Positions 23,888 to 33,754 of a stretch of 34,502 bases of DNA are shown piece by piece. The DNA is from a virus. The position numbers and the translations under genes are program-made. The notes below the pieces were generated by a model, which saw nothing but the letters and a program-made list of their open reading frames with translations, searched no databases and had not been told where the DNA came from. Every line of letters starts with the position of its first letter. The first letter of the stretch is position 1. The stretch covers positions 1 through 34,502 of the IMG/VR virus record IMGVR_UViG_3300027777_000078; one strand, 5' to 3'.

Positions 23888-24361
23888 TCATAAAACACGC
23901 TCTCCAGACACATCGATGTAGGCATTGGTGCGTACAATCTGACCACCATTGACTGTCCGCTGAGTGACCGTCCTCTCAAGCCGGATGCGAGGTAATAACT
24001 CTCCCGACGAATCGGCAATCTTCACTACGAGAATCTGTTTATCGGGAATGAGGTAGAGAAACCCGTAGAATGGGACGCATAGGGTCTTTGCGAGAAATGC
24101 CCCATGCAAAACTTTCTCATAGGTCACAAGCCACTCGTCACCCCAATCAGCGAGTTGCCTCCTACTTATCTTGCGGCACTTCGACTCAAAGCAAGAGGTG
24201 ATCTGATCCCCTTTGATCGTAATCCCATCGACCTTTGCCGGATCCTTTTTGGGGGTGTTGACGAACATTGAATCGGGGAATGTGATCCGTAGGGAGTCGA
24301 GCATCTCCTGCTCCTCCCGTGCGGACTCCTGCCCCAATGGTGTGAGGATGTCGAGGGTCAT
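23888..24361 (-). CDS. PD-(D/E)XK nuclease-like protein
   Basis: The 157-aa protein contains KVDGITIKGD, CFESKCRKIS and a downstream basic patch. D45 and E59-x-K61 fit the PD-(D/E)XK active site: acidic residue, beta-hairpin, E-x-K. It could be a Holliday-junction or repair nuclease serving the replication module. Its ATG overlaps the helicase-loader stop (ATGA). Confidence 0.55.
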   Translation of the reverse strand: MTLDILTPLGQESAREEQEMLDSLRITFPDSMFVNTPKKDPAKVDGITIKGDQITSCFESKCRKISRRQLADWGDEWLVTYEKVLHGAFLAKTLCVPFYGFLYLIPDKQILVVKIADSSGELLPRIRLERTVTQRTVNGGQIVRTNAYIDVSGERVL

Positions 24362-25050
24362 AGCTTCACGATGGTGCTGAACTCACTACCGAGTCTGCGG
24401 ATGATTGCTTCCCCGCGGTCGGCACTGAACATCTCCCGCAACTGCTTCCCGTCCGAGTTGGATGTCCAAATGGTCGGCAGTCTCCGGCTTGTCCGGTACT
24501 CCAGTAAATCGTAGAGTTCGCTCTCGGCTCGGTCGGTCATCCGGTTCTTGCCGAGATCATCCAGTAGCAAGAGATCGGAGAACTTGCACTGATGGAGGAT
24601 CGCTTTGGCGATCTCTTTGGTTGCCGGATTGTCTGCGAACTGGTTTGCAGAGTTGAGGGCTAGATCGGTCGATGAGATGAAGAACGTGTTCTGACCCTCC
24701 TCATGCATCCGCTTAAGTAGCATCACCGCGGCACGGGTCTTTCCTTTGCCGGAGCCTCCAATGAATCCGATCCCTTTGGGGTTCATCGACCACATTTCGG
24801 TCGCCATTACCAGCGGGGCCGGAATCCTCAAAATATCGCTCTCGTGGTAGATCGGAGGGATCATCATCTGAAAACGCTGTATAGACACCTTCTCGGCGCG
24901 GGAAACGGCATCCTGCTTTTGATCGTTCACCGCTTTTTCGACACATGGGTCGCACTTGCGGGGTTCAAAGATGGTTTTGCCACCGAATTGGATCGGTTCG
25001 GATTCAAAGGTTTCGTTGCAGTCTTCGCAGGTATAAATCTTGATGGTCAT
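24358..25050 (-). CDS. DnaC-like helicase loader (AAA+ ATPase)
   Basis: This is a 230-aa protein. An N-terminal zinc finger (C8-x2-C11, C33-x2-C36) precedes Walker A GGSGKGKT at 98-105, Walker B LLLDDL at 161-166, sensor-1 TSNSD at 196-200 and an Arg-rich sensor-2 region (IIRRLGSEF). Layout and length fit DnaC/DnaI-type loaders, which place the host replicative helicase at the origin. Encoded right after the DUF1376 initiator, as in lambda-like O/P pairs. Dyad-family site H lies in its coding sequence between the zinc finger and the ATPase domain. Confidence 0.88.
   Translation of the reverse strand: MTIKIYTCEDCNETFESEPIQFGGKTIFEPRKCDPCVEKAVNDQKQDAVSRAEKVSIQRFQMMIPPIYHESDILRIPAPLVMATEMWSMNPKGIGFIGGSGKGKTRAAVMLLKRMHEEGQNTFFISSTDLALNSANQFADNPATKEIAKAILHQCKFSDLLLLDDLGKNRMTDRAESELYDLLEYRTSRRLPTIWTSNSDGKQLREMFSADRGEAIIRRLGSEFSTIVKL
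24876..24889 (-). promoter_or_regulatory. Dyad-family site H
   Basis: Plus strand GCTGTATAGACACC: 9 of 10 dyad bases. It is intragenic, about 165 bp into the helicase-loader gene. Confidence 0.45.
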
Positions 25051-25051
25051 T

Positions 25052-25693
25052 TTAGAAGTCGTGTTCGGAGGTTGCTAGTGCGAGGGATCCGGCGGAGATG
25101 GGGGCATCGATCCGATTGAGCCAGTTGACCACGAACCTGCGGGTCTTGAGTTTGCCGCGGCGGGTGGATAGCCACGCATCCATCTTGCGGGACTCGGACT
25201 CAACATTGAGGTGGGGGTAATGAGTCTTGAGAGAATCCATCCACTCAACATCCGAGAGCTTTGAAGTCGGGAGTGGTTTCACCACGACTGTCTTCTCTTC
25301 TTTAGTCTTAAGTTCTAAGTCTTGAGTCTTAAGTAGCATATCGATCGCAGTGCGATCGGTGTGCGTTCGCATTGCGATCGCATTGCGTTCGCATGATGAG
25401 TGTCGAGCCAAAGCAGACTCCCGCGCCTTCTGTGATTTAGCATAAGTCTTTTCTAGCTCGGAGGTTACCTTCCGGTGAGTCCATCCGGCATCGGTCGGGT
25501 TGAAAAACTCGACCAGTACCGCCTCGATGACCTCCGAGGTCGCTCGGAGCTTTCGCTCAAGACCCTCACGCTTGAGTGGCAACTCCGTGTCGTATGCCAT
25601 GTCGAGCATTCTACGGTAACATAAATCCTCCTCATTAGTGAGGTGAGTGGTCGCGTGATGATACGCTTTAATATCAAACTGGAAGTAGTGCAT
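25052..25693 (-). CDS. DUF1376 replication-initiator-like protein
   Basis: The 213-aa protein's first 70 residues (YFQFDIKAYHHATTHLTNEE then DLCYRRMLDMAYDTELPL) match DUF1376, the winged-helix N-terminal domain of phage replication proteins equivalent to lambda O. The C-terminal part (about 140-195: SKLSDVEWMDSLKTHYPHLN) is the usual partner-binding region. Between them (about 100-131) the protein sequence is poor and repetitive because the DNA there carries the iterons and AT-rich repeats of the putative origin. The ATG at 25693 overlaps the previous stop as TGATG. Confidence 0.8.
   Translation of the reverse strand: MHYFQFDIKAYHHATTHLTNEEDLCYRRMLDMAYDTELPLKREGLERKLRATSEVIEAVLVEFFNPTDAGWTHRKVTSELEKTYAKSQKARESALARHSSCERNAIAMRTHTDRTAIDMLLKTQDLELKTKEEKTVVVKPLPTSKLSDVEWMDSLKTHYPHLNVESESRKMDAWLSTRRGKLKTRRFVVNWLNRIDAPISAGSLALATSEHDF
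25303..25395. other. Putative phage replication origin inside the initiator gene
   Basis: Five tandem 11-bp units occupy 25341-25395, consensus GCGWTCGCATT; the two leftmost units are degenerate. The unit length equals about one helical turn. Immediately beside them, 25303-25334 carries two copies of AGTCTTAAGT with a related AAGTCTT between, in a stretch of about 32% GC (25291-25340). Iterons next to an AT-rich unwinding element, within the initiator gene and beside the helicase loader, is the lambda ori design. Function is inferred. Confidence 0.75.
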
Positions 25694-28100: not shown

Positions 28101-28258
28101 TCTGAGTCCTCCGTTAGCTTTTCCCGTGCGACTTTGAGCAGGAGCAGCTTGAGTTCCTGCACGAGATCCTCACGGGTACGATTGATCTGATCGACACTCC
28201 GTTCGATTGCCAGTAGTTGCCCTTTTACTGTGGCATCCAGTTCGTTGAGGTCGTTCAT
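28097..28258 (-). CDS. Small coiled-coil protein (53 aa)
   Basis: ATGA overlaps occur at both ends. The Leu/Ile heptads (LNELDATVKGQLLAIERSVD to QELKLLLLKVA) predict a coiled coil. Perhaps a dimeric accessory of the recombination pair between which it lies. Confidence 0.55.
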   Translation of the reverse strand: MNDLNELDATVKGQLLAIERSVDQINRTREDLVQELKLLLLKVAREKLTEDSE

Positions 28259-28869
28259 GCTGCCTCCTTCATGTCGGTGAAGCTGAATGCGACAACCTCT
28301 GCCCATTTGGTAACGATGCCCTTAAGGTAATTGACGGGGAGAGTCTTGACGGTGGTCGCATCGACCTTTGCGTCTTTGCTCTTGAGGTAGGCAAATATCT
28401 CCGGCTCAGAAACCTTATCGGTCGTCATGAGTCCGGCGACTTCATGCGCCCAATCACGGGAGGGTGCCGACTTGACCGGAGCAGGCAGGCATGATGCGTT
28501 ACCGTCATCATCCGATGCGGCAAGTGAAAGCACCCCTTGAAGTGAGTATCTCCGTTGGTACGAGACGGCAGATCCGATGCCCTGCATATCGTTCTTGCTA
28601 ACGATAAGTGCGGCAGTGGACTCGATGAACTCGCCACTCTCGTGGAGAAGGACGGTGGTGAGGGTGCCCTCTCCAACCAACTGGAGGACTGAGAGACCTA
28701 CCTCTGCGAGAGGGCCGCGGACAGCACCGAGGATCCCACCGAGATCGGCGAACTGAGCCTTAAAATGGGGGTTCGTCGCGTTCTTGTGAATCGCGGGTGC
28801 GTTGGAGTGGAACTTCGCAAGTGCTTTAGCGAGTGCCGTGATGCTGTCGGATTTGGTCATGTTGCTCAT
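28255..28869 (-). CDS. erf: ERF-family single-strand annealing recombinase
   Basis: The 204-aa protein contains KNATNPHFKAQFADLGGILG (about 30-49) and QGIGSAVSYQRRYSLQGVLS (96-115), followed by SDDDGNA. These are the signature blocks of the ERF superfamily (phage P22 Erf), which anneals single strands for genome circularisation and recombination. The start at 28869 or the ATG three codons later are both possible. The leader is A/C-rich with ACCCAACCCAAC and no Shine-Dalgarno. Confidence 0.9.
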   Translation of the reverse strand: MSNMTKSDSITALAKALAKFHSNAPAIHKNATNPHFKAQFADLGGILGAVRGPLAEVGLSVLQLVGEGTLTTVLLHESGEFIESTAALIVSKNDMQGIGSAVSYQRRYSLQGVLSLAASDDDGNASCLPAPVKSAPSRDWAHEVAGLMTTDKVSEPEIFAYLKSKDAKVDATTVKTLPVNYLKGIVTKWAEVVAFSFTDMKEAA

Positions 28870-33518: not shown

Positions 33519-33754
33519 CACTTCACAAGTTCGTGGGCCATGACTTCGGGGTGACGCTCAAGCCATAAGCGAGTGACACGGGGTTTCATTTCGTCCCTGT
33601 CCTTTTCAAGTACCTGTTGCCCGTAGTGATCGGTGACTATTAGGCCGATACCAACGGCAAGTGCGCCGATGAGGGGAACACCAAGCCACCGAATGAAGCC
33701 AAGGATAGCCTTCAGCGTTCCCAGTATCTCGTCGTGGTTGTTTTCGGTGGTCAT
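33518..33754 (-). CDS. Single-TM protein of the lysis cassette (78 aa)
   Basis: The ATG at 33754 is supported by GGAGG 8 nt upstream and an ATGA overlap. It has one transmembrane helix (FIRWLGVPLIGALAVGIGLI, about 22-42) and a charged C-terminal tail. It could be an antiholin, pinholin or i-spanin-like protein; no lipobox is seen. Confidence 0.6.
   Translation of the reverse strand: MTTENNHDEILGTLKAILGFIRWLGVPLIGALAVGIGLIVTDHYGQQVLEKDRDEMKPRVTRLWLERHPEVMAHELVK

Follow-up and report, generated by a model that had tools for sequence, protein, structure and literature searches.

The gene for a DUF1376 protein in this phage very probably contains a replication origin, gene-internal and bipartite, within the reading frame of the initiator itself. 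The window that we analysed is the whole 34,502-base phage record, and its strongest self-matches at spacings of 11 and of 7 bp fall side by side in the linker-coding part of this one gene. The repeats are observed; binding, melting and initiation are inferred from them, there being no binding, footprint, depth or plasmid-replication data. The features on which the argument rests are the following.

24358-25050, minus strand: DnaC/IstB-like helicase-loader gene, directly downstream of the DUF1376 gene (IstB_IS21 Pfam E 6.6e-9; DnaC-like PHROG E 8e-25)
25052-25693, minus strand: DUF1376 gene, 213 aa, proposed replication initiator (first ATG 25693-25691, stop ends at 25052)
25299-25334, minus strand: 7-bp AT-rich repeat tract of about five units (TCTTAAG on the plus strand, CTTAAGA on the coding strand; TRF), proposed DNA unwinding element
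25341-25395, minus strand: 11-bp iteron array of five units, coding-strand consensus AATGCGAWCGC

Read on the plus strand, the iteron units are TCGATCGCAGT (25341-25351), GCGATCGGTGT (25352-25362), GCGTTCGCATT (25363-25373), GCGATCGCATT (25374-25384) and GCGTTCGCATG (25385-25395). Their period is exactly 11 bp and the copies are imperfect (TRF: 25342-25393, period 11, 4.7 copies, 80% matches), in agreement with the initial annotation, which had described five tandem units of exactly that period. In a scan of all 34.5 kb, self-match at lag 11 reaches its maximum of 27/33 at about 25351 and self-match at lag 7 its maximum of 23/33 at 25294-25299, the next best value elsewhere being 18/33 in both cases. 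Neither value was reached in 1000 synonymous-codon shuffles of the gene, which preserve its protein and its codon usage (p = 0.001 each). The neighbouring tract, earlier described as AT-rich with paired AGTCTTAAGT repeats, is indeed poor in GC (0.32 at 25291-25340, as against 0.526 for the whole DUF1376 gene), but the supposed pairs belong to a run of about five 7-bp units placed head to tail; the heptamer of the window, ACTTAAG/ACTCAAG, is a variant common to this phage and its nearest relatives. We found no second iteron site in the window except one single-mismatch site at 33715, and none of its three DnaA boxes (1.5 expected) lies near the array. Cumulative GC skew has no clear switch at 25.3 kb, and because the record may be a fragment this measure is uninformative for the window.

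The encoded protein satisfies the requirement for Pfam membership of DUF1376 (PF07120, E 1.6e-15, 57.7 bits against a cut-off of 30.1) and also matches PHROG entries for 'primosomal protein'. Its parts are a winged-helix N-domain, a long basic helix, the repeat-encoded linker and a variable C-domain. In an AlphaFold2 model (66 unchanged sequences; residue 1 of the model is His2) the N-domain has a pLDDT of about 95 and runs into one long helix, 73-112, and the linker (pLDDT of about 60 and below) and the C-terminal part are poorly defined. Structural matches of the N-domain are mostly winged helices, including Z-alpha, ORC2, CodY and FadR, with Z up to 7.2 in VIA-align; since all VIA-align rows have Z below 8, we claim no specific structural relative. 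Foldseek returned no PDB match below E 0.001 for the model, the plasmid initiator chains 5kbj and 4pt7 being weakly among its matches, and a PDB sequence search found no relative of the protein. The modelled winged helix fits a DNA-binding initiator, without proof of any specific kinship, the fold being a very common one. That a helicase loader directly follows the gene, as had been noted from the start, is supported by the IstB_IS21 and DnaC-like matches of the reading frame at 24358-25050, which encodes an ATPase of the DnaC/IstB type. Further along the record, an Erf-like annealing protein (28255-28869) and a phage integrase (29844-30893) suggest that the phage is temperate and has a recombination module of its own.

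To place the window among its relatives we drew on 85 DUF1376 genes that had been gathered by N-domain protein similarity or Pfam only, regardless of repeats: 51 nonredundant viral genes together with genes from named phages and bacterial genomes. Narrower seed alignments, A2 and A4, were used to find related loci, and related DUF1376 genes are not independent observations. Across the 85 genes the mean best self-match was clearly above controls only at lags 7, 11, 14, 21 and 22, and weakly so at 28; it stood at 24.1 for lag 7 and 20.7 for lag 11, with 14.8 in the controls for each. Synonymous shuffling gave p <= 0.01 at lag 7 for 54/85 genes and at lag 11 for 25/85, compared with 0/77 controls at either lag, and the lag-11 signal was individually significant (p <= 0.05) in only 38 of the 85. 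Of the 34 genes in which both signals were significant, 33 have the 11-bp array ahead of the 7-bp tract, mostly 26-84 nt upstream of it. For 66 of 75 loci of about 5 kb it was the DUF1376 gene that contained the best 11+7 pair, although the gene makes up just 16% of the locus. The 7-bp tracts are strongly biased on the coding strand (A 0.51, C 0.31, G 0.07, T 0.12), and 59 of 73 tracts have three CCA or ACA spaced 7 bp apart on that strand, whereas none has them on the template strand. The window meets this layout, with its 11-bp array in the linker-coding part and its AT-rich 7-bp tract downstream, and the original proposal of an origin-like array inside the DUF1376 gene was thus borne out by the comparative tests on the 85 genes and the 75 loci. 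Among 47 genes downstream of DUF1376 we counted nine DnaB-like helicases, nine primase/helicases and four DnaC loaders by PHROGs, and one lambda P by Pfam, counts that overlap, a single gene sometimes matching two or more families. A search of three Bacillota genomes for Phage_rep_org_N found none.

The iteron word also recurs beyond the genes gathered in this way. A 24-nt pattern of two units matched at least 120 stretches of viral contigs, as against one for a reversed-pattern control, and 22 stretches in bacterial and archaeal genomes, most of which are not initiator genes; the initiator or initiator-like genes among these 22 include Bacteroidota and Acidobacteria sequences. Among the viral matches listed, most of the long host ORFs are initiator-like, are read in the direction opposite to that of the consensus and carry the array between their N- and C-domain: an N-domain is followed by a KxxKAxxSAxxRW-like segment, a repeat-encoded stretch (NANAMRTQCEGNA and its frame variants), a low-complexity stretch and a C-terminus, and the C-terminal parts differ widely. 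Some host proteins belong to Lin1244_N (PF14297), which profile comparison relates to DUF1376 (probability 96.6%, E 5e-10). In 46 nonredundant initiator-type loci among the matches listed, the 11-bp word stands in the three codon phases 17, 18 and 11 times, which indicates that the DNA is conserved and not the peptide. Seven matches of another type (L010), each with two units and with a 471-aa ORF that lies on the other strand, look like chance occurrences in one conserved gene and were set aside.

Several loci were observed with repeats of related or different kinds. Two contigs without a recognised initiator gene carry non-coding 11-bp ATGCGATWGCA arrays followed by GTAA-type repeats (L006, 84-130; L057, 5415-5470), and a Paenibacillus genome has about eight head-to-tail copies of ATGCGAAAGCG (L142, 3261-3350), again with no initiator gene recognised there. 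Three Bacteroidota Lin1244_N genes (L160, L162, L140) have 5-bp AT-rich repeats (GAAAG/TAAAG) in place of the 7-bp ones of DUF1376.

Relatives with the same initiator and no iterons in this region, which the initial annotation had named as grounds for refutation, proved to be only a minority, and L050 and L097, which belong to one lineage, have a non-coding array instead. Their DUF1376 gene keeps the SAxxRW motif and is without repeats (lag 11, 17/33; lag 7, 16/33). Beside it (L050, 5301-7351; L097, 2484-4121) lie non-coding 11-bp iterons of the TGCGAACGC type (GCGAAC) and then ACCCAAT heptamers, in the usual order, with self-matches of 29/33 at lag 11 and 23-28/33 at lag 7. Such a placement is a direct argument that the arrays work as DNA and need not lie in the gene.

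These observations bear directly on whether the repeats are a mere by-product of selection for a flexible, polar peptide in a low-complexity linker. The arrays do lie in the poorly defined linker between the domains, and 33 bp would give the peptide a period of 11 residues. However, shuffles that preserve the peptide abolish the periodicity, neither period, 7 or 11, is divisible by 3, one and the same word is found in all three codon phases and arrays occur outside any long ORF as well, so that this explanation is already contradicted and we consider it scarcely credible. The initial annotation had likewise placed selection on the DNA and not on the peptide, a view that the loss of signal on shuffling and the three codon phases uphold.

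Even if the DNA is what matters, it need not be an origin. Initiators often regulate their own genes, as is generally known, and bound iterons inside a gene could block its transcription, so that the array might be an autoregulatory operator to which the DUF1376 protein binds to limit transcription, with replication beginning elsewhere. Such an operator would leave unexplained both the conserved 7-bp tract, which is AT-rich, has an A/C strand bias and keeps a fixed position next to the iterons, and the retention of both parts in the out-of-gene array of L050 and L097, and we regard it as very unlikely. Another possibility is that conserved linker DNA acts as a recombination boundary, permitting swaps of C-terminal domains along with downstream helicase modules. 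What the relatives share is the N-domain and the repeats, in contrast to their highly diverse C-terminal parts and downstream genes, and swaps of N-domain and origin do occur in a plasmid, pPR9 (PMC5703833). Recombination, however, needs neither two fixed periods nor a pairing of word and motif, and it may merely follow from the origin without being its purpose; as the reason for the array we find it extremely improbable.

The pairing of word and motif is itself a property of the subfamilies. The 11-bp word differs between them and tracks a basic motif just before the linker, at the end of the DUF1376 domain: SAxxRW goes with TGCGAACGC (14/24, elsewhere 0/61), GGRPK with AACCCA (27/38, elsewhere 0/47) and GKASAxxR with GTTCAAC (8/11, elsewhere 0/74). 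These class words were found 49 times on the coding strand and once on the template strand. Seed alignment A2 was drawn from repeat-bearing phages, and the share of their iteron class may therefore be inflated. On a tree built from the N-domain with the motif left out, 15 changes are needed for the motif and 6 for the iteron class, and the scored words agree with the motif; independent contrasts of word and motif number only one on well-supported branches and three to five on the best tree. The link could be mostly shared ancestry, and because co-inheritance is not excluded, recognition of the iterons by the basic motif remains a hypothesis.

The mechanism that we propose for the gene-internal origin is a conditional one. 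DUF1376 proteins would bind to the iterons, at one 11-bp unit per helical turn, with their winged-helix domain and the basic segment that leads into the linker. The complex so formed would melt the adjoining A/C-rich 7-bp repeats, the putative unwinding element, and the C-terminal part of the protein may then deliver the loader or helicase encoded by the neighbouring gene to the opened DNA. The linker peptide would simply be whatever the origin DNA happens to encode.

A broader claim, to which we give an even chance, is that one origin grammar serves phage initiators of a large class, DUF1376 together with at least part of Lin1244_N: class-specific 11-bp iterons read by a short basic motif after the winged helix, with the melting site marked by A/C-rich 7-bp repeats that are widely shared, both overprinted on linker coding sequence. 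If that is true, the origins of very many phages could be read from sequence and their specificity predicted from the protein. The narrower proposal of a gene-internal origin by itself gives DUF1376, a family still labelled 'unknown function', a likely function, that of an initiator with the origin in its own gene, and makes origin-finding for many phages a matter of a sequence test. Moreover, the pairs of motif and word that have changed together are ready-made material for studying site choice by initiators, and in the array a function of the DNA has clearly been overprinted on a protein linker.

In the open literature searched, DUF1376 is named in just five papers, once in each, and we found no account of such an origin there under replication, phage or iterons; subscription literature and preprints were outside the search. 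Gene-internal origins as such are already known. The origin of TP901-1 rep is one, and there, as in the window, a phage replication gene lies next to recombination and ssDNA-binding genes. Unlike the window, TP901-1 rep has its strongest lag at 15, with no signal at 11 or 7, and its protein has HTH_36/DnaB_2 domains.

Phage lambda and the Stx phages have their origin within the initiator gene O (PMC7466680), and the initial annotation had called the array lambda-style. This description holds for the layout, which the window meets: midway through the initiator gene come iterons and then an AT-rich tract, and the helicase-loader gene is adjacent (PMC7466680). It does not hold for the spacing or the protein. 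The iterons of lambda are 18 bp long at a spacing of 20-24 bp (annotation and lags), without periodicity at 11 or 7 bp; the window protein is not Phage_rep_O (only DUF1376 was found), whereas lambda O itself matches PF04492; and lambda has lambda P where the window has a DnaC/IstB-like loader.

In SPP1, oriL lies in gene 38, with direct repeats and an AT-rich unwinding element inside the initiator gene, and the loader and helicase are gp39 and gp40 (PMC6316719); the window shares this combination of repeats and AT-rich element within the gene for the initiator. In pSK41, the boxes to which the N-domain of Rep binds lie centrally in rep, the origin codes for the linker, and N-domain and origin are exchanged as a unit (PMC5703833). 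The window would resemble this RepA_N initiator in having an origin-encoded linker inside the initiator gene, and differs from RepA_N initiators in that Pfam shows no RepA_N domain in its protein at E up to 0.001. By analogy, then, the proposed DUF1376 origin resembles gene-internal origins of known kinds and would differ from them in iteron geometry and initiator family; the lack of any 11/7 signal in lambda O (20-24 bp) and TP901-1 rep (15 bp) marks the DUF1376 type as a separate variant with spacing rules of its own.
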